From Morchella semilibera (Eukaryota; Ascomycota; Pezizomycetes; Pezizales; Morchellaceae), in assembly GCA_009192285.1 (NCBI GenBank), contig WBVU01000009.1:1736001-1800000 (forward strand): a stretch of 64,000 nt of DNA, given 5' to 3'. Under the pieces are notes generated by a model that worked only from the letters and a program-made list of their open reading frames with translations, did not search any database and was not told the DNA's origin. Shown piece after piece: positions 28,842-56,477 of this stretch (positions within the stretch are counted from its first letter, which is position 1; each line of letters begins with the position of its first letter). The position numbers were made by a program, and so were the translations under genes.

Positions 28842-30535
28842 GAAATGCAGTGGAATATCGTGGAGCAATTTCCAACCGATTGCAAAGAGCTTTCCAAAAT
28901 TCAGCTGTAAACTGTGTCCCTCGATCTGAAACAATAGTCTCTGGCAACCCATGCAACTTCCATACCTGCTCCAGGTATAGACGAGACAGATCCCTGGCGT
29001 TAACATTCTCTGTTGTAGGGATCAAATGCTTCATCTTTGTTAACCGGTCCACCACTACCAATATAGCATTAAACCCATTGCTCTCTGGAAGTCCCATTAC
29101 AAAATCCATAGTAATATCCGTCCAAGGTCCCTTGGGTACTAATAGCGGTCGCAGAACTCCTTGAAGAGAATTATGGTTCACTTTACTCCGTCGACAGATA
29201 TAACAATTTTGAACATAGCAATCCGTATATTTCCACATGGTCGGCCAATAATAATTCCGACTCAGAAGTTCCAATGTCTTCGACCATCCAGGATGTCCAG
29301 CAGAGGGTTTATCGTGGTATTCTTGTAACAAATAGAGTTTAAGTTCGTCGTAATCGGGAACATAGAGTGTATTCCGATAAAGCAATAACCCCTCCTCGCT
29401 CTCCTTGCACTCAGCCAACGAAATCTCTCTCGATTGTCGAACGCCATCTCGGAGCATGGATAGGATTTTGTTTGGAAAGCTATCACTCTGGTAAGCTTTG
29501 TTAAACAACTCAAATACGGAAGACGATCCTTCAGCGGGTTCATTTGACAAAGAGCCCGCTAACAAACCTATCTTAAAATCCAAATTCTCCTTCTTCAAAA
29601 CCACTCGGCTTACTTCAATCTCTCATCCCCCTCCTTCGGTAAATCCTTAGGCCTTCTAGTCAAAATATCAACCTTCCTTCCCTGCTTCCCCGGCCTATAC
29701 TGAATAATAAAATTAAACCGAGATAGAAACTCTGCCCAACGAGTTTGACGCCTATTCAGCAATTTAGTCAACATAAAGTACTCAAGATTGCGATGATCTG
29801 TAAGTACTTTGACTTGGAATTGAGCTGTCTCCAAATGAGGTCTCCATTCCTCGAAGCAACAAATAATGGCCAACAACTCCTTGTCGTAGATCTCGTAATT
29901 ACATTCTGCTGGCGAGTGTGTCTTGGAGAAGAAGGCGACCAGATGCAGTATTCCTTCATCATCTCGTTGTGATAGTATCCCTGCCGACACATAATCTGAC
30001 GCATCGGTTTCTACAATAAATTCTTTTTCGGGGTCAGGATGCATCAGTATGGGAGCGGTGGTAAAAGCAGTCTTGAGTTTCTGAAACGCTTGTTCAACTT
30101 TTTGGGTCCACTCAAATCGTACATGCTTTTTTGTCAGAGCAGTCAATGGCCGAGCCACTCGGGAATAAGCGTAAATAAAACGTCGATAGAAATTGGCAAA
30201 CCCAAGGAATTCCTGAACCTCCTTCACTGTCTTTGGCGCTTCCCAATCCACAATCGTCCGTACTTTAGCAGAATCCATCTTCATTCCTCCGGGAGTTAAA
30301 ATCATGCCTAAATACTTTGTTTCCTGCACACTAAATTCACACTTCTCGGGCTTCAGGTGAACCTCATTGGCCTCTAGGGCTTCCAGTACTTGCTGCACAT
30401 CCTGTTGATGTTGCTCCAGGGTTTCCGAATAAATAAGAATATCATCAAGATAAGCAGTAGCACAACGGTCCAGAAAAGGCCGGAGAATATCGTTAATCCA
30501 GCGTTGAAAGGTGGCAGGGGCATTGGTTATACCAA
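28842..30535 (-). pseudogene. Gypsy-A1 pol part 2: RT thumb, RNase H, integrase N-terminal half
   Basis: Starts at the Plavaka junction with [10 protein letters not shown] and continues with the RT active site [11 protein letters not shown], then the RNase H part ([27 protein letters not shown]). A frameshift or small deletion with a stop at 29610 breaks the frame between DERLK and RVVLKK. The integrase zinc motif (H-H-C-C, with CYVQNCYICRRSK) and the first two catalytic Asp (WTDITMDF, IVSDRGTQF) follow. Confidence 0.88.
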
Positions 30536-30856
30536 CATCAGCAGCCTATTCAACCCTACCGGAGGCCCGGGAGGTATGGGAGACGTTCGGAGACACCCGT
30601 CAAACTTTCGATCTCCAGGCGCTTACCCGCCCGTACGAGGGCCTCCTGAGCCTTTGCAGGAGCCTCCCGAGCCTTCAAGAAGGCTTAGCGGGCTCTCCTG
30701 ATGCTAAGCGGCGCTCTCCTGGCGCCATCTGGAGGCTTTGTAATATTCTCTCCCAAGAGGCTGCGAGATAACGTAGACCTCCACACTAGTAAGAGGTTTT
30801 CGTTTAGAGAGGCTTCAGAGACGCTCTGTTATAAGCCCAAGGATGAGTAGGGCGTT

Positions 30857-31145
30857 CTCGTGAGGGCTCCCCAAGCCCTCCTGCTATCTCCGGAGGATTA
30901 AGCGAGATCTCCCAAGCTCTCCTGTAATCCCTGCCAATCTCCTGGGCTCTCCTGAGGGCTCGCCAAGCCCTCCTGATATCTCCGGAGACTACTGATGATT
31001 AAGCGAAACCTCCCAAGCTCTCCCCTGTAATCCCTGTCAATCTCCTGGGCTCTCCTGATGGCTCGCCAAGCCCTCCTGATATCTCCGGAGACTGCTGATG
31101 ATTAAGCGAAACCTCCCAAGCTCTCCTGTGATCCCTGTCAATCTC
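30857..31145. repeat. Left subterminal tandem repeats, period about 102 bp
   Basis: Two full units (from about 30937 and 31040) and one diverged unit (from 30857) share CTCGCCAAGCCCTCCTGATA, TCTCCGGAGAC and GATTAAGCGAAACCTCCCAA. An inverted copy lies at 35328-35436. Confidence 0.8.
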
Positions 31146-31323
31146 CGAGGACTTTCAAACTATTACTAATCTACTGATACCTCAAAATCCACTTTGATTA
31201 TTCATACCATACATCAAAATAGGAGTCCTCCCCCAAAATCACATATCCACCGTCGAGGCGGGAGGAGGCTCTTGAAATGCCTCTCCTGCCTTTGCCATGT
31301 CCACGCCCCCCAAATCAATTCTC

Positions 31324-33359
31324 TTAATCGCTGCTGGTGCCTTCCCTTTCTTCCCGCCGCGCCTTTGCAGCTCTCCATGCGGCTATATCCACAGCTAATT
31401 GAACATCATCTTCCTCCAGGCCGACTCTGGATATAACCTCTTTAGGCCCTCTTAACTCATCGACCTAAAAGGCTTGTTAGTATATAGATAAGGCTCTTTT
31501 AGACTTTTTTATTTACCTTCTCGCGAATTGATTCTCGTATTACTTCCAGTGTGCCCTCCTGGTTCTCCTTGCTTCAAGTTCTCTTCCCCCATGTGCTTAA
31601 CATCCTGTTATAGGTAGCTGGAGGTATCCCGAAGTCAGAAGGAGCCTTTTAGAGGGCTTGGTGCGCCTTACTCATGATATCCGGATTCTGATGTGGATTG
31701 AAGTTCAACTCTTCGATATATATGCCTGTTTTCCAAGATCGTAAGATAAACCAGATTGCAGTGCAAACTAGGATAATAAACGCCTAAGATATATCATCAA
31801 TGAAACCAGGATCCCTGGCCCCACGCATTTTATCACCTTTGTAATATTTTAGAGATATTACTTCTATGATTTCCGGGGCCCAAAAGTGAAGCTGGCCTGT
31901 CTAGTGGCTGTGAGCACCTTGCTGAAGGCTCATAGAACGGTGGAGAGAGCTCTTACAATATAATTATCAGGATCGCTTATAAAACGGTGATTCTCGAGGA
32001 GAAAGGACACCTTCTTACCCTTTGCCTCTGGCGTTTTCTCCTCGCTCAAGCCATACAAAAGATCCTTCGACATGCAGTCCTTCACTGTAAAAACAAGGTG
32101 CGATCTCACCCGCGAACAATTGATTTGAACCTAATGGAAGCAGTTAGCGAAGGCTCACTAAGCCCTCCGAAAGGCGCGCGAGGCACTCACGTCGCTCCTA
32201 GCTAACTTAGTCATTGGTAGACTTGTATTAAAATGGTCGTTTGCCTCACTCCAAAACCGACGGACGTTAATACTAAGAGAATCAGCTTGAGGCCAAGGCT
32301 CCTCGAGCAATGTATAACGTCCGAGAAGGTATCCCGCATGCTTGATTACGGACTTGGCCTCTGCTGCGTTTTCATTAATGGAGTCAGGCTCTGGTGCTCC
32401 ATACTGCAAAGGCGTTGGCGTTCCATACTGCGAAGGCGTTGGCGTTCTATATGGAGATAGGGCTCTACGATATTGCTGTGGAGAGCTAGGCATGCGAAAG
32501 GGTTGTGAATTTGAAGGGGTTGTCTCGTCCTCGCGGTCGAGCTCTTGTCGCAAGGTGCTGCTGGTCGAGCGAAATAAGGAACTTGTGGAGGCGATGCTAG
32601 CCCTTTCGGAGGCTGCTCCAGCCTTCCGTGGAGTTTCCAGCCTTCGTGAATTCACGACATGACGGTTTCCGTGCTCCGTTATATCAGCAGTTTGACTGAG
32701 ACGAGGGGGATTTAAATATCACATACCTGCATCATATTTACTGCAAAAGAAGAAGAAGCAATTGCTTCTGCCGCCAGTACACTAGGTCTCCTTCGAGTGG
32801 CTACAAGAGCCCTGGCGGAGGCCACAGGGGCCTCCCTTGGTGTTTTTCCAGCTCGCGACCCCCGGTTTGATGGTGGTCGTGGCAGTGGTCGTGATGGTGG
32901 TGGTAGTTGTGGTGGTTGTGGTGGGGATGGTGGGACTGGGGATATACTCTGTTCTGATAAAGGCATACGCTGGGGCGGTGGTGCATTCTCATCTCCCGGC
33001 TCCTCGTCCTCATAGTCATCCTCATGGATTTGAACGTAGTCTTCCTCCTTTGGATGATCATCAAAATCACTCCAGGTTTTTGGTGGGCCCTGCAACGCTC
33101 CGTTTACCAATATTGCCCCGTCCGGAAACCTTTCTGGAGGGTTCGGGGAGCCATAGTAATCGGGGTCAGTATCTGGTTCTGTAGTACCAGAATTCCTACT
33201 GCTCGCAGCACTCGAAATACTCATCGCCCCCCTTAGACGTTTATTAATGGAGGAGGAGATCGGGGCTTGCATGCCATGTCCTTCCTCAACGCCACGCTTG
33301 TTGATTTTTGCTCTCTGCGAAGCTATGATGGTGGTTTGTAAGGCTGGAAGAGCCTTCAT
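31324..33359 (-). pseudogene. Plavaka companion gene with DUF6532-like region, copy 1
   Basis: Five exons join in phase 0: 33359-32727, 32673-32191, 32130-31939, 31900-31517 and 31464-31324 (about 610 aa). The N-terminal two thirds are disordered and Pro/Ser/Asp-rich, including a proline run near 32900. The C-terminal part, with LHFWAPEIIEVISLKYY, ARDPGFIDDIS and FIILVCTAIWFILRSWKTG, matches my memory of the DUF6532 pattern (a TA-x-x-x-L-x-x-W-x-T-G core) found mainly in basidiomycete proteins. In-frame stops at DIS|AFI (TAG), QAL|KAP (TAA, inside a GAGCC/GGCTC palindrome) and KRT|SKE (TGA) break it. The 38-nt intron 31938-31901 is shared with another copy at 57602. Function unknown. Confidence 0.6.
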
Positions 33360-33600
33360 GAAGGCTCTCACCTCCACTATATATGGTTCGATTCACACCA
33401 TATCACCTTTGCTTTTTCTCGGCAATTAGAGGTTTTTGGCGAGAAGCCTTCCGGACGGCTCGCTAAGACAGAATCAATTCTATAACTAACCTAAATAAGA
33501 TAACACGATACCCAAATATGCAACCATATATTCCCAAACAGGCAAAATTGCAACTGCATCTCCAAAAAACAAAAAACAACTGCAGTTAACATCAAACCGC

Positions 33601-33690
33601 TTATCAGGCCTTCTAAGCTCTAATCAAGCCTTCTAAGCTCTAATCAAGCCTTCTAAGCTCCAATCAACGCCCCTCGGGCCTTCTAAACTC
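33601..33690. repeat. 20-bp tandem repeat downstream of companion A
   Basis: Three adjacent units of TAATCAAGCCTTCTAAGCTC and a diverged fourth, immediately beyond the companion A stop codon. A comparable array of another sequence lies at 50568-50650 downstream of the companion A copy in the second element. Confidence 0.8.
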
Positions 33691-34930
33691 ACACTAGGTC
33701 GCTAGAGTCCTCGGAGACACGGTCATTGGCATCTCCGCCTTCACCATTGGTGTGCCTAAACAGGTGATTTCTCTCGGCTTGGGTCCAAATACGTTCACGA
33801 TCATAGTGACAAGACTCAAAGGTAATGGCATTTGGGTAGAGCCTTCTATAATGCTCATCGAGCCTTCTTCCAATCGCCGCGTACCTCTCGGAACGCTCAT
33901 GCACCACCGCCTGGAGCATCTGGCACCCCTCATCAGTACGGGGCATGGAGATATTCAAACCTGTTTGATCAACCTTATTCCTAAACGTTAGCATTTCCTC
34001 CTCAACATCAAGCTCTATTCCATCAATGTCGCCTCTAGTAAGGTGCTGATATCCTTCTAGTGAAGGTGTTTGAGGCATTTGGGTAGGCCCAGTAACAATT
34101 GCCGAAGGCCTGTGAAGCACCGTACAGAGCCTCAAGGGTTTTGCCTCTGTGGTTTTGAGCCAACCTTCCAGCTCTTCAGAATCTCCGATCTGCACATATT
34201 CCGGATTTGGGGGATAGGGTGCCTGCCCCCGGGGGGCCGAATTGGACAACGCCCCGTAGAAGGCTCGGAAAGCCCTCGCGGGGCTCCCTGGAGCCGCTGG
34301 TGGGGCTCGCTTTATTGCAAGTCTTTCTAAATCTTGCATAGACAACCCCTGAAGGATGTTAATAAAGGGGATAAGCGATCCGGGCCCGTACCAATCATAG
34401 TGGCGGTATATATCGCTGGGGATGCCTGTAACCCTTTCTGGGTCAATAATATGTATGGTTATTGCCGGCCTGTAGGGTATTCCCAAGGCCTGCCAGAACT
34501 CCGGTGTGGTCTGCAGTTCGTTTGTGCGGGCAGGAGGTGCCCCGGAGGTGGGTGTATCTTTAACTTCATCATCTGCGCCCCCCAAAGCCCCACCGTGGCG
34601 TTGGGCTGTCCTGTTTCTCTTCTGGGATAGATCGATAATGAGGCGGAGGAGAGCTGCTTGGATCTTTATAGAGTCCTCTGAAGCCTTTGCTGACCATGTG
34701 GTCTTTAGCGCCTTGATGGCCCTGTGGTCCATGCAAAATTGACACAGATTGTTGAATAATTGTTCGCCCGAGGTGACCTTATTAACCCACCCTATTCTTA
34801 CCATCTCGTCCGCGAGGTCGCTACGGAGAGCCTTATAGATAGCATCTTTTCCAGTCAATTGTAGCATTCTTCGGCAGTCGTGGATTGTCGTGCACTTGTA
34901 CGTAGCAGCTGGTCTCCCGCGTGGTGGCAT
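33689..34930 (-). CDS. Plavaka companion protein A, intact copy (413 aa)
   Basis: An uninterrupted frame from ATG at 34930 to the stop at 33689. I do not recognise the family. The N-terminal half is helical-looking and basic: DCRRMLQLTGKDAIYKALR, LADEMVRIGWVNKV, CMDHRAIKALKTTW, EDSIKIQAALLRLIIDLSQK. The middle has AITIHIIDPERVTGIPSD followed by YRHYDWYGPGSLIPFI, and the C-terminal half has PLRLCTVLHRPSAIV, an acidic strip DGIELDVEEE, then NISMPRTDEGCQML and RIWTQAERNHLFRH. Two further copies in the window (36606 and 50903-53770) keep the same order of motifs, which supports a real protein. No transmembrane, zinc or catalytic motif is evident. Its position upstream of and divergent from the transposase in both elements suggests a transposition-linked role (inference). 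Confidence 0.65.
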   Translation of the reverse strand: MPPRGRPAATYKCTTIHDCRRMLQLTGKDAIYKALRSDLADEMVRIGWVNKVTSGEQLFNNLCQFCMDHRAIKALKTTWSAKASEDSIKIQAALLRLIIDLSQKRNRTAQRHGGALGGADDEVKDTPTSGAPPARTNELQTTPEFWQALGIPYRPAITIHIIDPERVTGIPSDIYRHYDWYGPGSLIPFINILQGLSMQDLERLAIKRAPPAAPGSPARAFRAFYGALSNSAPRGQAPYPPNPEYVQIGDSEELEGWLKTTEAKPLRLCTVLHRPSAIVTGPTQMPQTPSLEGYQHLTRGDIDGIELDVEEEMLTFRNKVDQTGLNISMPRTDEGCQMLQAVVHERSERYAAIGRRLDEHYRRLYPNAITFESCHYDRERIWTQAERNHLFRHTNGEGGDANDRVSEDSSDLV

Positions 34931-35327
34931 GGTTGGGGCCTTTTCCGGGTTTGTGGGGCCTTTTTGGAGGTTTGGGGTAGGTGTTAAGATTTGAAGGGAC
35001 TCGGACGTTTAAAGACGCGGCTGTCAATGGCTTGAATATAGAGCTTTAGAGTGGATACTGTACCATCTTAAATACTGTATAGTAATTCAAGATCGAAGCC
35101 TTGAAAGGCCTCGAGTGGCCTGAAGAACCGTATGTTTGGAAGTGACAGGTTTGGAAGTGGTAGGTTTGGAGACATGGAAACGGGTGAGCGGTGTTTATCT
35201 ATGATCGAGCCTCACTACGTAGCGAATATCGTATCACATGATATCACTCGAATCAGGAGAGCAGAGGCACCAAGCGCACTAATTAGGGCTTTTGAAGCCA
35301 TCTGAAGGCTCGAGGAGCCTCCTGCCC

Positions 35328-35436
35328 AGGAGAGCTTGGGAGGTTTCGCTTAATCATCAGCAGTCTCCGGAGATATCAGGAGGGCTTGGCGAGCCCTCAG
35401 GAGAGCCCAGGAGATTGGCAGGGATCACAGGAGACA
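35328..35436. repeat. Inverted copy of the left subterminal repeat
   Basis: Reads as the reverse complement of the 102-bp unit at 30937-31145, with TTGGGAGGTTTCGCTTAATC and CAGTCTCCGGAGATATCAGG. The inverted pair brackets the DUF6532-like gene and companion A. Confidence 0.8.
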
Positions 35437-35768
35437 AAAGATAAATCATATAATTATTGCTAAGACCTAAAGAGGTAACCGGGGTAAAATTAAGAACTGC
35501 ATGTGCAAAAACAAAAAACTCCAATTCCCAAATGAAGGCTCCTCAAGCCTTCTAAACTGCCTACAGAGGTTTGGGAGCCTATCACCGTCGTCGCTGGTTT
35601 TATCCTCTGCACCTACAGGTGGTTTCAGTCAGAATAATAAGATTCATATAAATGCCATTCAGGAAGAGCATTCTATAATGCCCACCCCGATAAGTTCATG
35701 GATTCAGACCTTCAAGTTCCTAATCCAAAAGCTCTATATCATTAATATCGTCTCAGTCAGGTAATCCC

Positions 35769-36606
35769 ATCCCTCTGGTGAAGGCGTTTGGGGCCTTTGG
35801 GTAGGCCCAGCTACGATTGCCGAAGGCCTATGAAGCACCGCACAAAGCCTTAAGGGTTTTGCCTCTGTGGCCCTGAGCCAACCTTCCAGCTCTTGATCGT
35901 CTCCGATCGGCACATATTCTGGATCTGGGGGATAAGCTGCCTGCCCCGGGGTGCCGAATTGGACATCGCCCCGTAGAAGGCTCGAACAGCCCTATTAGGG
36001 CCCCCTGGAGCGGCCGGTGGGACTCGCTTCAGCGCGAGGGCTGCTAAATCATACATAGACATCACTTCGAGAATGCCGGTAAATGGCGTAAGCGACGCAA
36101 TCCCATACCAGTCGTATGGACGGTACGTATCGCTTGGGATGGCAGTAGCCTTCTCTGGGTCAATAACATGTACGGTTATTGCGGGCCTGGGAGGTATTCC
36201 TAAATTTCTCCCAGGACTTGAGTACCATCTTGTAATATCTCTCGTTATCCACCGCACTTTCCAAAGCTTCGTCATGTCGTTTGTCTATCCTTTTCCTCTT
36301 CTGTGATAGATCTACAATGAGATGGGCTAGGGCTGCTTGGATCTTTATAGAGTCCTCTGAAGCCTTTTCTAACCACTTGGGCTTCAAATTCGTGAGGGCC
36401 TTGTGATCCATGGCATATTCGCACAAATGATTGAATGAAGAATCGCCCGAGCTGGATTTATTCACCCACCCTGTCCTTGTCATCTCATCGGCGAGCTCTT
36501 TGCGTAGAGCCTTATAGATACCATCTTTATCTAAGTGCAAGATTCTCCGGCAGTCGTATGTGGTCTGGCAAATGTACTTGGCGGGCTGTTTGTATCGTGG
36601 TGCCAT
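35769..36606 (-). pseudogene. Plavaka companion A, duplicated copy with frameshift
   Basis: Starts at ATG 36606 (MAPRYKQPAKYICQTTYDCRR) and matches companion A through ALRKELADEMTRTGWVNK and EDSIKIQAALAHLIVDLSQK. A frameshift near 36180-36240 moves the frame; the second half (RPAITVHVIDPEKATAIPSD, YRPYDWYGIASLTPF, RAVRAFYGAMSNSAPRG) continues to about 35769, where similarity stops. The C-terminal third is missing. Its upstream DNA repeats the promoter of the intact copy, so the two arose by tandem duplication. Confidence 0.75.
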
Positions 36607-37557
36607 TTCAGGGGCCTCCTTGGTCTTTTGGACCCGCTTCCTGACTTGTGGGTCTAACCTGGGGGGTAGGGAGCGTCGAGTCTTATGGGTAGGTGTCGTT
36701 GGGGGGCGCCAGGGGCCACCGATAAGCCCTTGGGAGCCCTGGATCCTGAAGGCCCGGATCCTGAAGGCTCGGATCCTGGAGGGCGTAGAACGGGGCTTTT
36801 CGGAGGCTCCTCAGACGTTTTCGACTTTCCCTTCTGGGTGCTCCGGGGTATCTCTTCCTCTGACTCGATCTCTATGTAGGATGCAACACCACTGCTAGAG
36901 GCTGAACCAAGGCTGGAGCCCGAGCTCTCACTATCAATGTACTGCCCGGGGATTAATGGTCCGACCTCCTGTTTTTTGGATGCGTTTTTATCACTCTGGG
37001 AGGATATGCGGCTTCGTTTTTGGCCTTGTTTAGGGCTTGCCGGGGTGTTGTCGGGGGTGTTTGGTGAGGGGTGCGTTTTGGATGCCGACTTATAGAAAGA
37101 GGAAAAAAAAAGCCTCCTGTATATATGTCAATTGCTTGAATATAGAGCAATAGAGAGGATAAGATACCATCTTATATCGTGTATTATAAACTCTTGAAGG
37201 CTTCGAGAGACTTGGAGATAGTGTAGTAAGCTTGAGCCAGTGTATCGATCCTAGGGATGGATAGGGATAGAAGTAGGAGAATAGGAGAACGTGGGGTATC
37301 TTCGATCAAACTTCACTACGTCATATATTGGAGTAACAATTGAACATCATATTGAATCATATGATGTCACTCGAATATTGTGATCAGAACGTTAGTGCGA
37401 TAAGATATGATCTATCGGTGCACGGGCCCATTTAGAGTGCCAACCTCCCCGAAGCCTCCCAAGCCTAGGAAGCTTAGGAAGCCCCCAGGGGCTCCAGAGT
37501 CTCCAAAGCCTCCAGAGCCTCCGAAGCCTCCACCAATATTGACTATCAGCAACTTGA
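36607..37557. other. Intergenic region between companion A copy 2 and the transposase
   Basis: Holds the divergent promoters. A GGATCCTGAAGGC unit is repeated three times at about 36745-36780, and a CCNAAGCCTCC pattern at 37440-37530. From 37135 to 37400 it resembles 35030-35285 upstream of the intact companion A (shared TTGAATATAGAGC, GATACCATCTTA-like and CACTACGTA blocks, and ATCATATGATGTCACTCGAA). Confidence 0.6.
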
Positions 37558-40468
37558 ATGAGATCACGATGTCCATTTTGCATACGGAGCTACGCCAATG
37601 CTGGTAGTTTCGATCGACATCTCTCAAAAGTCCACCCATCGCGGACCCGCGGGTGGTACGACAGGCAGCTTTCAGGGACTCCCGTTGAGGGCTCGCGGAG
37701 CCTTCCCGAAGGCTCAGGAGGTCCCCACGAGGGTGGACATTTGAACATACCAGACGAAAGCGAATCCGATACTGAATCGAATGATGATCATACTTTGGGA
37801 TCCACGCGGTTCAATCTAGCAACTACCATATACGAGGGTGCAGAGGAGCCTCTTTTCATCGCAACGGGATATGATGAAGGCTCGGAAAGCCTTTTGATCA
37901 ACCCATGGCAGCCTTTCGAATCAGCAGAGTAATTTCGGTTATCGCGCTGGTTCCTACAATCGAATGTATCTCAGGGTCAAATAGACGATTTCTTCCGCAC
38001 CGTACGCCCTCTACAAGGCTCCTACAGCACTGGTAGAGGCTTCGCACGCCTCCTCGACGAGATGTCGTCTATGGGGGGTTAGGAAAAGAGAGTTGGATAC
38101 ACTCAGAGGTCAAAATGGGCGGGCAGAAAATTCCTTACTACTACAGGGACCCTATGAATATAGTGCGTTTTCTTCTGGGACAACGTGCATTTAGGGAGTC
38201 CTTGGTGTATTCACCTATTATGAAATACAATGAAATGGGGGAGCGGATGTATGGGGAGATGCACACGGCAGACTGGTGGTGGGAGATGCAGGTTCGCAAC
38301 ACTTACTTAGAAGGCTCAGAGAGCCTCCGCTAACCCCTCACAAATGTTATAGAATACCCTTCCAGAAGGATCAACGGTGGTGCCAGTAATATGTGCATCA
38401 GACGGAACACACCTCACTAATTTCAGTGGTGACAAGAAGGCTTGGCCAGTATACCTAACGATTGGCAATATCACCTCGGACACACGAAATAAACCCTCTA
38501 ATTACGCGATCATACTCCTAGCTCTACTGCCAGTGCCACCAAAGGTTGGAGTGCGTACGAACGAACGCCGTTGGGAGAGCCAGATGGTCCTTCACCAGGT
38601 CCTCTCTGAGGTTCTCGAAGGCCTTCAGGGCCCTGCGGAAAGGGGTGAGCTTATAACATGCGCTGATGGCTATGTGCGCCTATGTTATCCGATACTATGT
38701 GCATGGATTGCGGATCAACCAGAACACGCCTTGCTGCTAAACCTCAACAATCAGGCCTGCCCTAGGTGCGAAGTTGATTTCAAGGGCCTAGGGAGCCTTC
38801 AAGAAAACCCGCCACGCATTCAGGAGCGATATATCGAAATGGTAGAGCGTTATAAGGAGGATACGTCAGATACAGCCGGCGGCACCCGTTGAATACCTAG
38901 TGTCGAAATCCTTCAAAACTCTGTACAATGCTTTGTGGGCCTTGCCGAACGCTCAGCCGTATGATCTTCACAAGCCAGATATGTTGCATAATATTTATCT
39001 CGGCCTATTGAAACATATGATGGAATGGATTCAATCGTTTTTGAAAAAACACAATCGGCTAGAGAATTTTGATCGGGCTTGGGCGTCCATTAAGCCTTAC
39101 CCAGGGCTTGCTGTACCAAATAAGGCTTATCGGGCAACTACTCAATGGCAAGGTAAAGAAATGCGTCATCTCGGCCGGATAGTTCTAGGAGCCTTTGCAG
39201 TGGCTCTTTGGAACCCCCCAAAAGCTTCGCAGAGCGACTTCGGGAGATCCTTGAGGTGTGTTCGGTCACTAATCGATTTCCACTTGATGGCACAGTACAC
39301 TACGCATACAAAAGAAACACTAGACTATCTTCAAGGGTATCTCGAAGATTTCCACAAGTATAAGGATGTGTTTCTGGAATTTAGAGCCGATAAACGAACA
39401 AGGAAAGAGGCAAAGGATCGAACAAAGGCGCTGCAAGGCTCGGGAAGCATTGACAGAGGCCTGGCGGAGCTTGAGGAAATTCGCGAGGCTTCTCATTTCA
39501 ACTTCATTAAAATGCATCTTCTTTCACACTTCCGGGGGCATGTAGAGCGATTTGGTAATATTCCAATGTTTTCAACCGATGTGAGCGAGTTAGCTCATAG
39601 GCAACAAATTAAGATGGCTTATGCAGCCTCCAATATGGTCGACGCAACAGTTCAGATTCTCGGTTACCACTCAAGGCGTATGGCTATAGAGATACGGGTC
39701 TTAAATCTAAAAGATATCGTTGTCAGTCTTCCAGAACATTACGAGGGCCTCCCAAGCCATCGAGAGAGCCTCCGGGGCATGTTGGAAGTATTCAAAAACG
39801 AGGACCCACAAAGGACAAACGAAAGATTCCTAGACGATGATAAACATCCGGAACCTAGGATGTCGATCCCCGACGGTGGACCCCACATATTATCTGATAT
39901 CGCCGATATGATTAAAATCAATAGAAGAACACTAGCAAGAGCGGTGTCGGAATATGGTCAGGGCCTGAGCCGGGGAGAACAAGGCTTATTGAGCCTTCTG
40001 GAGTGCCCGGTGGGGTGCTTTAAGTGCCTACAGGTGCCAGTATCAATTTTTCAGAAGCCTGACAGTTACGAGATACACAATATATGGTGTACGGGAGAGG
40101 CATTATTTAGGAAAAGGTCGACTCGAAATGATTGGGCATGGATTAAGGTGGCCACAACGGAGCCATGGGGAGCCTTTCAGGGACGCCTACCAGGGCTTGT
40201 ACGAGCAATATTCAAGATACGTGACAGTATATCGACGAAAACATATCAGCTTTGTCTTGTAGAGCTACTGGAAGCCAAGGATAGGGGTCTTCCAGACGGC
40301 TCACACGGTCTTCTTAGAGTTGCGAGGCGCTCTCGGCAAAGGTTTTGGGTAGTTAATATCAGTAGTGTTTTGGGAATGGCTCATTTGTTCGAGCTGGGAC
40401 AGCCTGAGGGTCAATGGCTTGTGAACACGAGGATAGATTTGAGAACGTGGAATGAATTTGATATATAG
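37558..40468 (+). pseudogene. Plavaka transposase (CACTA superfamily), copy 1
   Basis: ATG at 37558 opens a C2H2 zinc finger (CPFCIRSYANAGSFDRHLSKVH, split here as CPFC and DRHLSKVH) near the N-terminus. The Plavaka core follows: YYRDPMNIVRFLLGQRAF and MHTADWWWEMQ near 38135-38290, an intron 38291-38352, then ICASDGTHLTNFSGDKKAWP (first catalytic Asp) at 38390, and LCYPILCAWIADQPEHA (second Asp) near 38690. The LHKPDMLHNIYLGLLKHMM and FSTDVSELAHRQQIK blocks lie downstream. A stop at 37930, a frameshift near 38090 and another near 38880 disrupt it; the last 522 codons from 38900 are open. GAGCC/GGCTC palindromes occur in the coding frame and are translated as EGS-type peptides. Confidence 0.8.
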
Positions 40469-40599
40469 TGACAATGTCTCTGGTGGCCTGGGGAAAGGTA
40501 CAAGAGGCCTTCATAAAGGTTCGAGTGACTTCAGCTGCATAGAATGTATTTAGAATAAAATTAACATGATAGTAAACGAAACAATATGATCTAGATCGG

Positions 40600-41030
40600 G
40601 GACTCATGAGGGCTCCAGAACCCCTTATAAAGGCGTAGAGGGCCAGAAGCTCCCGGGCGGCGGGGTAGCCATAAAGAGCTGTATATGTTTTTTGCGTGAA
40701 AATAGGTTGTTGGTGGCCTCCGAAACTTACTAATCAAAGCTCGGAAGCCCTCTGGAAGGCTCAGGAAGCCCTCTGGAAGGCTCGGGAGGCGAGAAACAAT
40801 TAGCGAGGTGTCAGGAGAGGAGGGTAACAGAAGGCTCAGGGAGCCCTCTAGAAGGCTCAGGAGGCTACATACAATTAGCGAGGTGTCAGGAGAGGTAAGG
40901 AGGGTAACAGAAGGCTCAGGAGACTCGGACTCTCTAGAAGGCTCGGGAGGCCATCGGGAGGCTCGGGAGGCAACAAATGGTTAGCGAGGTTATTAGGAGA
41001 GACGGGAGGGTAATTGCCTTGGCAACGGCC
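40600..41030. repeat. Right subterminal repeat field
   Basis: Repeats of GAAGGCTCAGGAAGCCCTCT type and of AATTAGCGAGGTGTCAGGAG, the larger unit being about 80-100 bp and repeated three times. It contains the densest palindromes of the element. Confidence 0.75.
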
Positions 41031-41070
41031 TCCGGAGACCCAGTCAAGCCTCTGGAGAGAGTTTGAATCT

Positions 41071-42201: not shown

Positions 42202-42218
42202 TCCCTGGGCTATGCCGC

Positions 42219-43460: not shown

Positions 43461-43527
43461 GGTAGACTATGCCAGTGGTGCGAGGAACTCGGACTGTGCC
43501 AGTCGAGTAAGAGTGGTCTTGTCTTAG

Positions 43528-47929: not shown

Positions 47930-48569
47930 TGTCCCGGCGTCTTGGTATTTGTTCCGATAGTTCGGTAGGCGATGTACGGTTGTGGTGGTTAGGGTAATGA
48001 TAAGCGAGAGTGGGGAGTGCGAGGTGGAGGTTGTCGTCATTGGGTTCTGGGAGGTTCGATGGCGTGATGGATTGCCAGTGGTAATATAGAATAGCGGAGA
48101 TGGTGGGGAGGATCACGAGGTGTGGTAGCGACGGGGTTTTATGAGGTTCTATGAGCGAAAGTGTGAGTCATAGCGGACTAGTGGAGGAGGTGTATTAAAT
48201 AGCGGGGATAGATGTTTTCCTTAGTTCTTTCTTTCTTTTCTCTCTGTCTCGTCTTCCTGTTATCTCGGTACATAGGAATCTACTCCTATTTTCAAGCCAT
48301 AGCCTCTCGTACCAAAGACTCGTTCCTCTGACGAAGAGGGAACTTATAGTACTCCTCATCGTTCTCGTTGAGGTCCATTCGGTCCTCACTCTCTCTGCTC
48401 TGTGTTCCTGTCTCCTTGCTCTTGCCTTTGCCTTTGCCTGTGCCTGTGCTTGTGCCTGGCCGGTGTCGCCTCTATCTTCATCAGTTCCCTCGTCGCGTAG
48501 ACTGTGCTCCTCGAGCCCTTCTGCGTCATCATTGTCATCTTTTTCTTTGCGTCGGGTTACTCTGTCACA
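47930..48569 (+). mobile_element. LTR-A (640 bp)
   Basis: Complete LTR from TGTCCCGGCG to CTCTGTCACA. The flanks (ATTTC and CTTGA) do not match, so recombination or deletion has removed one side. The right flank is companion-gene DNA of the second Plavaka-like element. Confidence 0.85.
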
Positions 48570-49252
48570 CTTGATGAGAGCTTTCAGGGGTTTGGTAAGA
48601 ATACCTGTCGTCATCATGAGGCGGAGGTAAAGAAGGTGAAGGCGACAGATAGTTAGGGTTCACTGTATCATTATTCCGAGGTGGTCTCTCTAATGAGGAT
48701 GGCTCCATTGTTCGAGGCATTCGAGAGCTAATCTCAAAGCTCGGAGAACCGCCCCACTGGCAGGAGCTATCATCGCTTGGTGGCATGAATCCAGGATTCA
48801 ATGCCATTGGTGTTGGTGATGATTCTCTTAACCTAGAAGAGGAAGGGGGGGGGATACGAAAAGATGAAGAGTAATTAAAAGCATTCAGTCTCCTGGGGGT
48901 AGCAGTAGGAGCCATCACTGGGTCCACAGGAGTCATCGGCGGTCTTTGTGGAGCGCTTGATGGATTTTTTGTTGGCTTCGACGATGTACGATTTCCCTTC
49001 TAAAATTTCTTTCATCTCAGTCACTTATCAAAAAAAAAAGACTGGGGTTAATTACTTGAATAACGTTGATCTCCACTTCTGACGACGCAATTGCCTCAGC
49101 AACCGCACCGGTGGGCTTTCTCCGGGCACTCGCTATACCTCTGGCAGTCGTTACTTGACTACTCGGAGGTCTCTTTCCAGCGACTTGCGTACCCGGGGAT
49201 CTTTTGTCTGCGAGCTGATATCTCACGCTTTGTTCGCGTAGTACTGGAGTGT
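48570..49252 (-). pseudogene. Plavaka companion gene (DUF6532-like type), copy 2 fragment
   Basis: Two exons, 49252-49056 and 48999-48570, separated by an intron of 56 nt at the same place as in copy 1. Upstream of the intron, IASARRKPTGAVAEAIASSE matches VATRRRPSVLAAEAIASSS in copy 1; downstream, KGNRTSSKP matches HGNRHVVNS. The rest is Ser/Pro-rich. It is cut on the right by LTR-C and on the left by LTR-A, so the DUF6532-like part is absent here. Confidence 0.6.
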
Positions 49253-49739
49253 TGTTATGGAGCAACACGAAGACAAGGAACTAGAGAGCTGAGGCACACA
49301 ACCGAGGCGAAACGAGGACGAAGGTAAAGGGCAACAGCGATGGAGTCTAGCCTAGAAGCAGGGTCATGGAGCAGAGGGTCCAAAGGGCCTCTCTTACGAA
49401 GATGTGGAAACGAAGGTAGCAGTAGACAATGCGAACTACGGTCATGGACTATGGGCGAGGCGAGGCGAGGCGAGGTACTATGGAAGACCCAAGTGGGTCT
49501 TGGCAGAACTATGGTGATGACATCGTTTATTCAGAACTAGAGACAAGAAACAAACAGAACTAAACCGTAGGGTTAGAATACGTAAGGAAAGAAAGAAAGA
49601 AAGAGAAAAGAACAAAGGGAAAATTCATAGCCACATATATATACCCCACCTAATCCCTGTACAATCATGACTCATCACATTGTGTAACGGAAACCCATAG
49701 AAACAGTGAAAACCCGAAAGAAACCTTACAACCAAAAAC
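49253..49739 (-). mobile_element. LTR-C solo LTR, copy 1
   Basis: Homologous throughout to 54078-54606. The left end is TGTTATGGAGCAACA; a TATATATA box-like site and AAAGAAAG tracts lie inside. On the minus strand the order of TATA-like site, CT tract and terminal TAACA fits an LTR. The right end is approximate. Confidence 0.6.
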
Positions 49740-50263
49740 CTATTCTCCGATATCCTGCTCCTCCGCAAAGTCCGTAATATGACGTGATAAGTGTCTAGGT
49801 CATCATCATATTCTGAAGAACTGGTTGTACAGCGCTTTTGAACCTCTTGCTCTCCCTCGGACGGGTGTCTTTCAAGGTTAAACTCTATTCGAGTACCGGA
49901 TTTTCTAGATTTTTTGTTCTATCGAGAATGGCTTTTAAGAGATGATTTGGGGACTCCTTGGGCTTTGGTCGAGGCTTTGGTCGAGTGGCGCTCTGGGGGG
50001 TCAGGTAGGTCCTCATCCGATGAGATTTCATTTGGGGGCCTAAAGCGTTTACGAGAAGAAGTACTCCTTTGAAGCAGTCGCTTTCCTTGAGCATTCTTCG
50101 TGGTTGTGCTGACTCTCATGAGAGTGTTGGGAGCTTTCTCGGGTACAGCCTCACCCTCGTTCGAATCTTGCTCTGTAGTTTCCCCATTGTGGTCTTCAGG
50201 GTCAGGGAGGCTTGGAGTGGATTTGGTCGTTTCCGACGTTGAGGGATGCTTTGCTTGATGCAT
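49740..50263 (-). pseudogene. Disordered companion fragment of Plavaka element 2
   Basis: ATG at 50263 opens a frame to 49885 that is Ser/Thr/Glu/Pro-rich with a basic RKRFRPP patch. Beyond the stop, in another frame, RHITDFAEEQDI resembles QRITDFAEEEDIPERV at 54640. No family recognised. Confidence 0.4.
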
Positions 50264-50902
50264 CTTGATGCCTGTGAGGGCTCTCCTGAGGGTTTTGAAG
50301 GCTGTGCTGATTTCTAATCAAAAGAAGTGCTTGGCGTGAAAATTTTCATGTAATCTAAAGCTAACCACATACAGACAAAATTGGTTAATTAGATGGGCTG
50401 GGCACACCAATTTGGGTTAAAATAGCCTCATCGGTAATCATCCGCAATAATGATGTTTTCAGGAGCCTTCGCGATAGCTTTCAAGATCACTAGTAGCATT
50501 CGGGCTTCAAATCACTTTGATATTCGCTATCTATCAGTATCAAATAAATGCTCCTAACCTAAGAATAAATCAATGCTCTCTAATAATACCAAGCCTTCAA
50601 TCAACGCTCTCTAATAATACCAAGCCTCAAATCAACGCTCTCTAATAATAGTAATCACCCAAAATGTTACGTGGTTAACATTCGCGGACCAAGGAAACAA
50701 CAAATAATACCGAACACAAAGCTGTTACCGACCATGTTGAGAGCTCTTAAAGCTATCGCTAAACCTTTCGAAACCTCTGTATACCCTAACAAAAATAGTG
50801 GGAGAAAAAAATCTGTGGGGTCAGTTAATAGATCAATCATGCTAAAATGTGAATAACTCACTAGAATCTCGCAAAACCTGTCCAAACTCTCGCCAAATAG
50901 GC
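50264..50902. other. Non-coding stretch with a 30-bp tandem array
   Basis: At 50568-50650 the unit AATCAACGCTCTCTAATAAT plus ACCAAGCCTT is repeated about three times. The remainder shows no supported frame. Confidence 0.6.
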
Positions 50903-52577
50903 CTAAACACTATCACCATCACCATCACCACTACGTCCGGGGAGGGGAACCAAGGTAGTCTTCAGCTTTTCCGTTGCGCGGCGCCACGGGTTTTTGGCTC
51001 TGTCCTCCTCACGCTTCTGAACGATCTCCGCAGCCCCCCAGACACGCCCGATTCTGAAGCTAGGGTCCGCAATACCAACACCCACAAGGTACTTATTAAG
51101 GTACTTCTGGTTGAGGAGCTCAAGGGCTGATTGCTGCCTATTCCGGCGTGACGAGATCTTGTAGAGGTTTACCTGTTAGTGGAACGACGCATCACTCTTC
51201 GGCATGATGAGCCTGGTTCCAATGGAGGTCAATCTAACTCCGTCCTCCAATTCAGAGTCTTCAGCCGGATAATCAAAGTGTCCATAATCGTTACTAGTGG
51301 TGTATGGCTGGTATAGTCTTCTAGGAAGGGTTTCATCACCATCATGGGGTTCAGTCTGGCCTACTCTGTGAAGTATAACCAGAATACGGAGAGGTTTTGC
51401 CAGACTTCCGAGCATCCAGGCTTCTACCTCCTCAGTGTCCATTATGCGGACCCAGGCTGACTCCTCTTCTGGTTCGGCTGGTTGGTTCATCGAGCCATAG
51501 AATTCCCTGACCAACCGACCAATGGAGATATGCTTGCAGGCGACTCTTCCAAGCTCTTGGATATTCCTCCGAGTCATCACGGCAGTGTAACTAGGCTCAT
51601 TATGTGCATGCCAGTGGGTCCAAGTGTATTCCTGTCTCCTAGCATCAGGATTGTATTCCTTAAAACGGTCAGGGTGTGACGGAGTAACCTGACGCAAAGA
51701 AGAAGATGACAATGATGACACAGAAGGACTCGAGGAGTACAGCCGAAGCAACGAGGAGACTGACGAAGACAGAGGCAACACCTGGCAGGCACAAGCACAG
51801 GTACTGGCGAAGGCAAAGGCAAGGGCAAAGGCACAAGAGCACAGAGCAGGGAGAGTGAGGACCGGATGGACCTCAACGAGAACGATGAGAAGTACTATGG
51901 AGTTCCTCTTTTTAGACGACAGAGTCTTGGGTACGAGAAGTTATGGCCTAGAAATAGGAGTAGATTCCTATATAACGAGATAACAGGAAGATGAGACAGA
52001 GAGAAAAGAAAGGAAGAACTAAGGAAAACATCTATCCCCGCTATTTATCACTTCTCCCCCATCAATCCGAAACAATTAACACATTCGCTCATAGAACCTA
52101 ATAGAACTCCATCGCTACCACACCTCGTATTACTCCCCACCATCTCCATTATTTCTATTACAAATCTATCACACCATCGAACCTCCTAGAACCTAATGAC
52201 GACACCCCCCTCTCGGCACACCCCCTCCTCGCTTAACTTTTCCCCACTGGTTACATCACCACTTCGACTACCAAATCCCCGGAACTGATGTCAAGATGCC
52301 GGGACACAGGGTCGACAACGATGACCCATATATTAGTCCGCTCAGATTGTGGCGATAGCTTTTGGCGCTTTGCTGAGTGCCCTGAGAGCTCTTGCGGCAG
52401 ATCATCCGAATCGTCAGCATCCAGCTCGGGATTGTGAGTGTCAATGTCGGTGGATTCCCGATTCCCCAAGCCCTTAGAGACCTTTTCCTTCCGACTGAAA
52501 TCGACCACTAGCCAGGTAAATGCTTCTTGTATCTTGGCCCTGGTGCTATCCCTCTGGCCTCCCATGATCGTGGCCAA
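50903..52577 (-). pseudogene. Plavaka companion A, copy 3, split by a solo LTR
   Basis: Read in the order 52577-52307 then 51674-50903. DSTRAKIQEAFTWLVVDFSR matches the EDSIKIQAALLRLIIDLSQ block of the intact copy. NIWVIVVDPDRF, formed across the LTR, matches ITIHIIDPERV. PLRILVILHRVGQ and GTRLIMPKSDASFH match the C-terminal blocks. After an in-frame TAA, ELLNQKYLNKY and RIGRVWGAAEIVQKREED match the end. The frame across the LTR is exact once the CAGGG duplication is removed. The N-terminal block lies further right at 53565-53770. Confidence 0.7.
51675..52306 (-). mobile_element. LTR-A solo LTR in companion A copy 3 (632 bp)
   Basis: Complete LTR flanked by CAGGG on both sides (51670-51674 and 52307-52311). 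Confidence 0.92.
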
Positions 52578-53564
52578 ACATACCAGAAGCCTCTGTTCCA
52601 GAAGCCATATGTTACAGGATTTGGAGACAGGAAGACCAGCAAAGCCTCCCTATACTACTGAACTCCCAATTGGCGCCCCAGAGAGGTACAGTGGTGCCAG
52701 TATGGGCCAGATTGCGGAGTTGCAGAATCACTGGTTAAAAAACGCGTTTTCGACCCCGAGAATAACCCCCGGAGCGTCAAGGCGCCGGCACAGCCGCTCA
52801 AGACACCGGTGGGTATATGAGGGGGCAGCAGTTCAAGTTTGGGATCAATCGGACCAAAACTGATCAAATGGCGAAGGTTTTGAGAAAGCTGACGCTGGGG
52901 ACTTCTCAGGGAAAGGTAAGACTACCCGACACCTCCGGTACCTAATCGTTGACAGTCCTAACGTTGAGCCATGCTCCTTAGTGATAGATAACGATGCAGG
53001 GAAGAGTTGGCGAGTGAAGTCGAGGCCCGGTACCAAGGTGTTATCAGGTAGCCTAACTCCGGCACTTCCCCGCTAATGAAAACTGAGTGTATGCAGTAGC
53101 GCAATGTAACATGAGGGATTTAAAAAGGCGTTGTGAACGTTGGCGTTGGTGTTTGATTTTCTTGGCGTTATCAGGGTCTTCTGGGTCTCCCACATACTTG
53201 TTGTAATGATAGTTCTTAGTCCGCGTGACATTTGTGTGGGATATAAATACAGTGTCATTCTCTGACTTTGTTGAAATCATCATCAACGAAGAGAGAGTCT
53301 TAATGATATAAATCTATTACCTCTATTCTATACACTCCCAGTGATTCTTGAAAATATCCACCTGAACTGATTTTCGTGTTAGCATTACCTCAATCTAAAT
53401 AACTTTCTATACTCGTCGGACTAGCATCGGACAACGGAGATTCTAGTTACGTTTAGACTGAAGTGACCCCGTTCCTTTCTGCCTTTGCAGTTAGCGTTTC
53501 GGACTCTGAGCTCTTTACAGTACTACTCTGGTAGTCCGGTGCGACACCCTAATACCATGCCACC
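52578..53564. other. Unassigned insert within companion A copy 3
   Basis: This stretch separates the N-terminal block of companion A from the rest. 53225-53470 has a TATAAATA site, a TTGTTGAAATCATCATC stretch and AT-rich DNA that recall an LTR promoter region, but no paired copy is present. No frame is supported. Confidence 0.3.
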
Positions 53565-53770
53565 AACTCATTAACATGAGTAAGCCCGCTAGTTCTTTTG
53601 TTGTCCTATCTTGTTCTTGTCATCTCTGTGGCGAGGTCTTTCCTCAATCTGTTGTAACCCTTTAGGGAGGCGGCCAATCCCAAACTCACCTTGGCAGTGC
53701 TTGGGTCCATCGAAACAATCTCCTTTGACCACCTTGCCTTGAAAGCCTTTTTTTTTTTCTGTCTCTGACG
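53565..53770 (-). pseudogene. Companion A copy 3, N-terminal block
   Basis: YNRLRKDLATEMTRTR followed by DNKRTSG matches YKALRKELADEMTRTGWVNKSS-type sequence of the other copies. A TAG interrupts it. An upstream FKARWSKEIV segment resembles LKTTWSAKAS. Confidence 0.5.
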
Positions 53771-54077
53771 ACGTCCTTGTGAGGCATGGCGAGGTTCGTC
53801 TCCGTAGTCTCCGTCACTGTCCTCGTCTTCGTCCTCGTCTTCGTCTTCGTTTTCGTCTCCGTCCTCAAGATGATTGTGCTTGTCTCTATCTTCGTTTTGA
53901 TGTGCGTTCTTGGGTATCGCAATAGCTCTGGGAGCTTTGTGGATGGCTCTCGGGGGTGTACTAGCAGGCTGGGAATTAGTAGTAGAGGATGGCCCAGACC
54001 GCAGATCTTGTCAGGTGGTTGGTGCTGTTGCTGTTGCTCTTGGAGCTTTGGAGGTGACTTTTGGAGTGCTTGGGCCT

Positions 54078-54606
54078 TGTTACAGGGCAACACGGAGACA
54101 AGGAACTAGAGAGCCGAGGTACACAACCGAAGCGAGGCGGGGATGTTGATGAGAGGCAGCGGGGGAGAAGTCTAATCGAGGAGCAAGATCGTAGGGCAGA
54201 TGGTCCAAAGAGCCTCTCTTACGAAGACATGGAGACGAAGGTACCAGTAGACGACACTGACTACAGTCATGTGCTATGGGCGGAGCGAAGTAGAACAGAG
54301 CGGAGACGAAGTGTTAATCAAGAATGATGAGGGGTACTATGGAAGACCCAAGGGGGCCTTGTCAGAACTATGATAAGGATGTCGTTTATTCGAAGCTAGA
54401 AACAAGAGACAAACATAACTAAACCATAGGGTTGATAACAGGAAGAACACGTAGGAAAAGAAAGAGAAAGAAAAGAACAAAGGAGAGGTCCGTAGCAATG
54501 TATATATACCCCCCCTAATCCTGATACAGTCATGACTCATAACATTGTGTAATGGAAACCCATAGAAACTCCAAGAACCCAAAAGAAAACACCGCAACTG
54601 AAAACA
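54078..54606 (-). mobile_element. LTR-C solo LTR, copy 2 (about 529 bp)
   Basis: Homologous to 49253-49739. Starts TGTTACAGGGCAACA and ends near CTGAAAACA. It is inserted in the disordered companion sequence whose neighbour resumes at 54607. Confidence 0.65.
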
Positions 54607-54988
54607 CCCGTTCTGGAATATCCTCCTCTTCTGCGAAGTCCGTAATACGCTGTGATAGGCCTGCCACAGCAGTCCTTATTGCTGATGCTGATATGGTTTT
54701 GGAAGTATCTTTTGGAATGCTTGGGCCTGCGATAGCGGTCCGTGTTGCTGATGCTGAGGTGGTTTTGGAAGTTTTTGCTACAGTGCTGGAAGTTGTTTCT
54801 GGGGCTTTGGGAGATGTGATAGTCTCTGGGGTGCTTCGATAAGCTTTAGCTAATGCGATATCTGCTGCTGCTGTTGTCTTTTTCCAAACTGGGGGGGCCT
54901 TGGGTGCTTGCGAAGCCTTGGGTGGCATGGGAGCAGTCTTCGTGGATGTTAGCGCCTGTTTAAGGGTGAGGTCTGGTGGGTGGACCAT
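54607..54988 (-). pseudogene. Disordered Ala/Ser/Thr-rich companion fragment
   Basis: Contains an internal duplication: TSASATRTAIAGPSIPKD and TISASAIRTAVAGL, then QRITDFAEEEDIPERV. It is cut by LTR-C. Probably part of the N-terminal region of a companion gene; no family recognised. Confidence 0.4.
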
Positions 54989-55004
54989 CGTAACTCCATG
55001 GAAT

Positions 55005-55380
55005 TCATACTCTATGTGAGAGGATAGTCAACTCTTCCTCTTTGGCTTTGAGGATAGGATGGTGCAGACGCTTTTGAGGGGTTGGTCGAGATCTTTCAGG
55101 GCTTCCGAAAGTGATGTCAGGACTATCAAGAGCCTGCAGGTTTGAGTGATGGGGTCGTGTGGCAATCTCATCTTCGGAATCAAAAACTGGTTGGCGCCCG
55201 CGTTTTCGGGGGGTTGCGATCAATCTTGGAGAGCTTTGGGGAGGGCTATTAAGAGCTTGTGGGTTCGAATCACGGAGTCTTGTGGCAATATCGTCTTCGG
55301 ATTAAGGGACTGGTTGACGCTGACGCTTTCGAGGGGTTGGGATATCTACTCCAGGGCTTTTGGCAGTGCTTTGTAAGGTA
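55005..55380 (-). pseudogene. Companion fragment with repeated AT-hook-like motif
   Basis: A unit of roughly 40 residues occurs twice: TPRKRQRQPV ... SEDDIATRLRDSNPQALNSP and TPRKRGRQPVFDSEDEIATR ... SNLQALDSP. KRGRQP resembles an AT-hook core (basic, Gly-Arg, Pro). An in-frame stop lies in the upstream unit. Confidence 0.45.
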
Positions 55381-56307
55381 TCGTGAGTATGATGGGAGGG
55401 GCCTTTCGACTTGCCACCGGACTGGAGATATGTTAGAAACTAATGTATAGTAATTAGGGAACAACCATGTGGTGTTTATATACTACCTTCCCAGGGGTAC
55501 TCTTAGTAGCGTTGGGTGGCATCTTTCAACTGGAAATTCTGGGGAGGTATCAAGTTGAAAGTGTCGAAGTGGATAATATCAAGTTGAAATGAAATTGAAA
55601 AGGCTGGACGAACAAGAATGATTAACGTAATATAGGTAGAACGCACCAGCTCAATGCCTGGCGAGGTTGGGAAGAGTAATGGAGATGGTGAAGAAAGATC
55701 TCTCAAGAGTGGAAGAAGAGGTTCTTATACCTCTTCTTCCAACATTCACACGAAATCAAATTAGTCATTAAGAACTATGAGAGCATCTTTCGAAAGCTTC
55801 CACAGTCTTCGCCAGAACGCACAGAGCCAGAATCATTGATTGCTTGGGTGTGTTTCGATGGTTTTGGGCAAGTTACTAAATGACGTAGATTAGTATGAGT
55901 GTTGGTATTCGAGTGCATTTTGGTGTTGGCATAATAGCTTTTCTTCGAATCGTTAGCTGTTCTGATCTCATTTTCAAGTACAGATGTAGTCATTTAGGTA
56001 TCAAAAGATAGGGACTTCTCGGCATTGCCTACGATTTTGAGCCACGATTTCGAGGGTACTCGTGAAACCTTTTAGAGTAGTGGTGAATCCCTAGAAGGTT
56101 TGGCCAATATGTGCGATTGATGTTGGGTTTGATCTGAAAGCATATGTTGGTTAGTTTTCAACGTGAATATATGACGTTGCTAGAAAGTTTGTTTGGCAAG
56201 AGGTTGTTTGCCCGGCAATACACCCTCACAAGTATTAGTAATCCACAGGCTTGGCAGTAGTAATTTTGACACACCTCCGAGAGCCATAGGAGCTATCGCG
56301 ACACCTA
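55381..56307. other. Divergent promoter region of Plavaka element 2
   Basis: Lies between the minus-strand companion fragments and the plus-strand transposase start, as in element 1. It contains a perfect hairpin at 55710-55741 and no supported frame. Confidence 0.5.
55710..55741. repeat. Perfect hairpin, 13-bp arms
   Basis: TGGAAGAAGAGGT, a 6-nt loop TCTTAT, and the exact inverted arm ACCTCTTCTTCCA. Confidence 0.9.
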
Positions 56308-56477
56308 ATGAAGTCCTCCTGTCCTTTTTGTAGCAAGCGATATAGCTCCTTAGCGAACTTTGAGAAGCACCTACGGAATAATCACCCTAACGAAGCGGAT
56401 AGAGAGTTCACAAATCAATGCGATCTTTTGCAGGAGAAACACAAACGACTACAGGAGTCTCACAAGGTTTCAGATGG
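56308..56477 (+). pseudogene. Plavaka transposase, copy 2, N-terminus only
   Basis: ATG at 56308 and MKSSCPFCSKRYSSLANFEK followed by HLRNNH give the same N-terminal C2H2 finger as at 37558. A coiled-coil-like stretch (LLQEKHKRLQESH) follows. An LTR-A at 56478 truncates it and the transposase core is not found in the window. Confidence 0.7.

Follow-up and report, generated by a model that had tools for sequence, protein, structure and literature searches.

VANDAL elements are Mutator-type transposons known from a plant. VANC proteins bind a short word that is dense in the VANDAL family they belong to but rare in the other families, and they cause loss of methylation (PMC5735166). In En/Spm elements, the transposase is conserved, whereas the DNA-binding protein that assists it, which recognises repeats specific to the family, is poorly conserved (PMC2613891). 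PlavakaB transposons are defined by the termini 5'-CATCA..TGATG-3' and a 2- or 3-bp target duplication (Kojima 2025, PMC12730594). An earlier note, made from the letters of the present DNA alone, had held that Plavaka elements are known mainly from basidiomycetes; this agrees with PMC12730594, but Plavaka has also been reported from the glomeromycete Rhizophagus (PMC11075540). Here, we analyzed a stretch of 64,000 nucleotides of Morchella semilibera (assembly GCA_009192285.1, 56.8 Mb; contig WBVU01000009.1, C23:1736001-1800000 in our contig numbering), referred to as the window. It contains a PlavakaB DNA transposon of autonomous type with a three-gene module, assigned to subfamily X.

Counted from the transposase outward, the gene order of the element was transposase (+), a gene designated A' (-), companion A (-) and a DUF6532 gene (-) (Table 1). 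The earlier note had placed the transposase behind a minus-strand DUF6532-like gene and companion A, and this layout was recovered inside the element ends. End regions of the copies on contigs C1, C2 and C7 were aligned to the window; the alignment started exactly at 30535/30536 and stopped at 41070, which confirmed the previously proposed ends 30536 and 41070. The ends enclose both A and the DUF6532 gene. When the window flanks were joined, they matched uninterrupted Gypsy stretches, with one base fewer in the window; one of these empty-site alignments was inspected in full, a second in part, and a third as an entry of the match list. This indicates that the element inserted into a reverse transcriptase gene and that everything between its ends arrived with it. 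The A genes of the C1, C2 and C7 copies were identical in DNA, pointing to recent transposition.

The termini of other copies read CATCAGCAAG..CTTGCTGATG. Among 19 copies selected by matching ends, 18 had 5'-CATCA..TGATG-3' at both ends, and the remaining copy had TATCA at one end. The window copy has a left terminus of PlavakaB type and has lost the right tip. Perfect 2-bp target duplications were present in 10 of the 19 copies, which had been paired by hand from 40 full-length matches to each end, compared with about 1 expected by chance (P 5e-8 at 1/16 each). The genome scan gave at least 40 matches to one X-type end and at least 40 full-length matches to the other, haplotype duplicates included. 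CATCA was also found at one DUF6532-side end each of subfamilies Y1, Y1b and Y2; Y2 carried it at both ends, and no 2-bp duplication was seen there by eye (outside the 19 counted copies).

The transposase was identified by a PF18759 match at window 38353-38889 (162.7 bits, cut-off 26.3), one of 128 such matches across the genome. Its frame breaks correspond to introns and to indels, the latter relative to near-identical copies. C(2)C and H(3-4)H motifs were present as CPRC/HQLSH in Y1, CPKC/HLMSH in Z and HLLSH in X, with CPRC in the X exon at 38353-38889. PF20149 matched at window 31688-31903 on the minus strand (C23:1767688-1767903; 33.8 bits, cut-off 24), and two TAG codons within this match may represent introns or decay. 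In another copy, A' was 66% identical to A. Analysis of nonsynonymous to synonymous substitution rates (dN/dS) revealed that companion A is under purifying selection.

Three different A proteins served as queries for companion A in the genome. Among the 72 transposase clusters, A was divergent and within 10 kb in 63, on the same strand in 1 and missing in 8. Conversely, 67 of 92 A clusters were located within 10 kb of a Plavaka transposase match, so that in this genome A does not lie mostly away from these transposases. The count of 92 includes 51 of 116 rows from the second A search and 10 of 13 from the third; nine rows of the second search matched only the last 45 query residues and were dropped as a presumed unrelated repeat, and the others overlap or adjoin counted loci. 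After merging, 40 of 55 A loci lay within 10 kb of a transposase match; when loci were placed at random 2000 times, the mean was 1.66 and the highest value 7. Of the 128 PF18759 rows, 79 entered this comparison, as did 80 of 109 A rows; the remaining rows were adjacent exons or overlapping parts of loci already represented. The lengths of contigs C5, C13, C15 and C22 were guessed. DUF6532 matches were near a transposase or A in 47 of 51 cases (42 on the strand of A, 5 opposite). The gene set and order recurred in divergent subfamilies, the transposases of which were 33-69% identical. In Z, the most divergent subfamily (transposase 33-41% identical to the others), a middle gene occupied the place of A; it was found by PF24465 (Tri-helical) over the cut-off at two of four genome places (28.4 versus 27 bits).

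The ends, the proximity of A to transposases and the recurrence in divergent subfamilies support the claim of the earlier note that the companions belong to the transposon: they move with the transposase as one unit. That the layout reflects mere clustering of unrelated transposons in repeat-rich regions is barely credible; the window is indeed full of nested repeats, but clustering does not set strand, and 63 of the 64 transposase clusters with A in reach are divergent. The element ends and the empty site, moreover, enclose the whole gene set. It is very improbable that A and the DUF6532 gene came from the host in a single capture and have since travelled as passengers. Gene capture by DNA transposons does occur, and a host copy of A is possible among the 14 A clusters that have neither a transposase match nor an X-type end nearby; however, A is multicopy, the layout is the same across subfamilies including Z, and purifying selection speaks against passenger status. 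Of the 25 A clusters distant from a transposase match, 10 had an X-type end within 10 kb and are suggestive of deletion derivatives or nested insertions; 1 was the second element of the window.

Short words were dispersed over the elements. In X, AAGGCTC or its complement occurred 34 times compared with 2.3 expected from dinucleotides, and 20 occurrences remained after removal of similar contexts. The words of the other subfamilies were CCGACGA in Z (18 versus 1.7 expected), AGTGCTC in Y2 (24 versus 1.6) and AGCTATC in Y1 (13 versus 1.4). In unique contexts, the density of each word in its own subfamily was 19 (X), 18.7 (Z), 14 (Y2) and 10 (Y1) per 10 kb. Elsewhere, in other subfamilies and controls, each word reached 0-4 per 10 kb, except for AGCTATC, with 7.5 in Y1b and 5.5 in the second window element, both close kin of Y1. 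The words are private in three subfamilies. They exceeded synonymous-codon shuffles in X (A, 4 versus 0.64; transposase pieces, 4 versus 0.51 and 3 versus 0.38), in Y1 (A, 3 versus 0.24; transposase, 4 versus 0.67) and in the Z transposase (5 versus 1.07; 6 versus 0.96). In these X, Y1 and Z-transposase sequences, the words occupy multiple reading frames and both strands, which points to selection acting on the DNA and not on the protein. In a hold-out, words were chosen in non-coding DNA and tested in coding DNA. The second and fifth choices for X were the two halves of its word; they occurred 9 and 12 times in coding DNA, where 0.62 was expected for each, and the second choice ranked 2nd there. 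For Y2, the word itself was the first choice and ranked 64th of 2357 in coding DNA.

The words might be by-products, without any reader, of internal repeat growth through tandem repeats, slippage or conversion, in an element to which the companions nevertheless belong. The X element contains tandem repeats of 20, 75 and 103 bp, some of which include the word or near forms, and its unique word contexts are fewer than its occurrences. These contexts still lie far above the expectation, however, and the words enter coding exons in several frames and on both strands beyond what synonymous shuffles give, so we regard this explanation as unlikely.

We propose that A is the second, regulatory protein of the element, similar in role to TnpA or VANC, within a three-gene module in which the DUF6532 protein or A reads the word; to this reading we give about even chances. 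As in En/Spm and VANDAL, the transposase here is conserved and is combined with a fast companion, with words private to the subfamily and with tandem repeats; for this reason we propose such a role for A, perhaps together with DUF6532. The helical N-terminal domain of A, the DUF6532 partner, or both would bind the short word repeated over the element, and the PB1-like core would join A molecules to one another or to the transposase. Binding would be confined to DNA dense in the element's own word; the ends might then be brought together for excision, or the element might be kept unsilenced. Words spread through exons fit coating of the whole element better than synapsis of the ends alone, and we lean slightly to protection or anti-silencing. 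A and the word would change together between subfamilies, and the fast divergence and private words suggest that each subfamily serves mainly itself. Only tentatively, we extend this to private address codes, in which each subfamily would have spread a word of its own over its whole length, exons included: A, as a PB1-oligomerising DNA binder and fungal counterpart of VANC or TnpA, might read only the word of its own subfamily, separating self from related elements and protecting or mobilising whole copies.

Several observations weigh against these readings. The C2H2 finger of the transposase could itself read the word. The companions would then be true parts of the element, with A and DUF6532 serving another need, such as blocking host defence via protein contacts; we consider this doubtful but a serious candidate. 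The X, Y1 and Z transposases have C2H2 fingers whose recognition stretches differ, and the predicted PB1-like core of A looks like a domain for protein interaction and not for DNA binding. A single zinc finger, however, reads only about three bases, and the transposase is the slow-evolving partner, yet the words differ completely. The words were selected for having the highest enrichment among all 7-mers, and were not clearly above synonymous shuffles in A of Y2 (1 versus 0.21; 2 versus 0.30) or of Z (1 versus 0.92; 2 versus 0.47). In the hold-out, the first choice for X was CAGGAGA, from the 103-bp array, with zero coding occurrences; the Z word was the 7th choice and the Y1 word the 11th, so that only those of X and Y2 came within the first two. 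Control stretches reached z scores of 8.6, and 12.0 for a poly-C homopolymer, and the Y1 word (z 8.2) is therefore not convincing; no such enriched word was found in Y3. The fold of A was predicted in two structure models with a mean pLDDT (predicted local distance difference test) of about 52; the best Foldseek E value was 0.025, and neither model gave a match at E 0.001 or better. The Z middle gene is linked to A only by position, by PF24465 and, weakly, by profile comparison (hhalign probability 11.8%, E 0.0025), and no significant BLAST match was obtained between A of X or Y and A of Z. A 2-bp duplication was absent in 9 of the 19 copies; the window copy, counted apart from these, has lost its tip and lacks one as well. 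The 14 transposase-distant A clusters mentioned above are unexplained, with only X-type ends sought near them. Finally, contig pairs C9/C10, C12/C13 and C21/C22 had near-identical match coordinates and scores, indicating that some clusters were probably counted twice; for some chromosomes, both haplotypes may be present in the assembly.

Table 1. Features of the two Plavaka elements in the window (window coordinates).
Feature	Coordinates	Strand	Remarks
Whole PlavakaB element, subfamily X	30536..41070	+ (by transposase orientation)	Identity with the ends of other copies stops here; empty site
Left terminus	30536..30545		CATCAGCAGC in the window copy; CATCAGCAAG in other copies
103-bp tandem repeat	30896..31146		2.5 copies here; more in other copies, number varies among them
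DUF6532 gene (PF20149), several exons	31688..33392	-	Outer limits approximate
Companion A	33692..34930	-	Intact frame, 413 amino acids; predicted helical N-terminal domain and PB1-like core
A', tandem duplicate of A	35737..36810	-	Decayed, out of frame here; absent from the earlier note
Plavaka transposase	37558..40465	+	N-terminal C2H2 zinc finger, DDE domain; split over several frames
Right terminus, truncated	41059..41070		Final 8 bp TGCTGATG of other copies absent here
AAGGCTC/GAGCCTT words (34)	30536..41070	both	Across the whole X element, including coding exons
Second element, DUF6532-type gene exons	48568..50317	-	
Second element, Y1-type companion A	50912..55439	-	In pieces, interrupted by repeats
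Second element, transposase N-terminus with C2H2 finger	56229..56475	+	Ends where a long terminal repeat (LTR)-like repeat begins

A second element, placed by the earlier note at 48570-56477, was as described there, with DUF6532-type exons, pieces of A and a transposase start in the same order and on the same strands. Its A pieces were 66-81% identical to a Y1-type A of another contig, which was itself 28% identical to A of the first element. An LTR-like repeat family was present at window 26291, 28194, 43520, 51667, 56470 and 56961 (61-96% alike to a reference copy), and two of its copies lay inside or at the edge of this second element. Around the first element, retrotransposon frames were found at window 27403-30545 and 41044-43466, and the flanks adjacent to the element matched uninterrupted Gypsy-type stretches at window ~59.2-61.2 kb and elsewhere. 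Within it, the unit of the 103-bp repeat also occurred as a single inverted copy at 35329-35434 (98% complementary), upstream of companion A. In one copy with both ends, the interior sequence was N. Short derivatives with both X-type ends were observed at C20:4674135-4675231 (1.1 kb) and C2:5042085-5045758 (3.7 kb) and are probably non-autonomous copies. Transposase-side ends without a partner end nearby in the match list, e.g., C22:2376285, C1:1836472, C14:675558 and C4:58792, are possibly solo ends or a different derivative class.

Companion A matched proteins of Morchella snyderi, M. conica and M. importuna. Protein searches gave named Morchella proteins, unnamed pieces (ena, lgn, jgi) and one unnamed lgn protein of 30% identity, and no basidiomycete relatives; such searches detect only sequences that have five-residue words in common, and in two of them no more than about 8000 candidates were scored, so they do not establish that A is absent elsewhere. 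PF24465 fell below the cut-off at a third Z place, in A of Y1 (20.8 and 25.2 bits), in the A frames L085 and L086 and in the X-like Morchella protein P0005, and A of the window matched neither PF24465 nor PF24962. PF24962 (DUF7767) was below the cut-off in two Y2-type and one Y3-type A; as it was weak in these three proteins only and gave no genome-scan match, it was rejected as a marker of A. A PB1 domain has a beta-beta-alpha-beta-beta-alpha-beta fold with an acidic motif; the PB1-like assignment of the core is tentative and derives mainly from the model of a homologue. In L086, L085 and L093, long low-complexity stretches (acidic, proline- or threonine-rich), variable between subfamilies, were located beside the A core. 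By eye, the M. snyderi protein P0009 (903 amino acids; no Pfam match) appeared as a gene model fusing companion A with part of the DUF6532 gene, and existing annotations may thus hide both.

The earlier note knew of no described companion A. In open-licence literature on Plavaka, DUF6532, DUF7767, PF24465 and PF24962, we likewise came across no account of A, nor any of DUF6532 as a gene of Plavaka, and no paper for PF24465, PF24962 or DUF7767; A is, however, not wholly outside known families, given its PF24465 matches. Plavaka was reportedly named by Iyer et al. in 2014, whose paper may mention companions. For two Ganoderma genomes, PF20149 and PF18759 both appear in a list of added domains (PMC8955403); this would be consistent with their moving jointly in basidiomycetes as well. 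With the present findings, two uncharacterised fungal families (A, partly PF24465-like, and PF20149 DUF6532) become transposon proteins with a testable role, and Plavaka in a Pezizales fungus becomes a three-gene element. As several subfamilies occur in one genome, swaps of proteins and words could probe how a transposon distinguishes its own DNA from that of relatives.

Compared with the PlavakaB elements of PMC12730594, the present element shares the PF18759 transposase, the 5'-CATCA..TGATG-3' termini, 2-bp duplications and the C(2)C and H(3-4)H motifs; it differs in its Pezizales host and in the constant divergent module of A and DUF6532, which the available portion of that paper does not mention. 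TET-bearing transposons have a TET/JBP gene inside the element, whereas here TET/JBP was ruled out as a companion gene by coordinates: of 11 PF12851 matches in the genome, none lay within 60 kb of a transposase cluster. Domesticated Mutator-like element (MULE) transposases with PB1, known as MUGB (PMC8616336), likewise tie PB1 to a DNA transposon lineage, but PB1 is there part of the domesticated transposase, whereas the present prediction places it in a companion protein distinct from the transposase. En/Spm (CACTA; TnpD, TnpA; PMC2613891) has in common a slow transposase, a fast second protein and repeated family-specific words. Here, however, the companion genes are separate and divergent rather than splice forms, and the words run throughout the element, exons included. 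VANDAL and VANC (PMC5735166) show the same family-dense short words, partly grown in tandem repeats, and related proteins with different targets. Words there are mainly non-coding, and the transposase here is a Plavaka and not a MULE enzyme; the proposed likeness lies in the way of working and not in descent.
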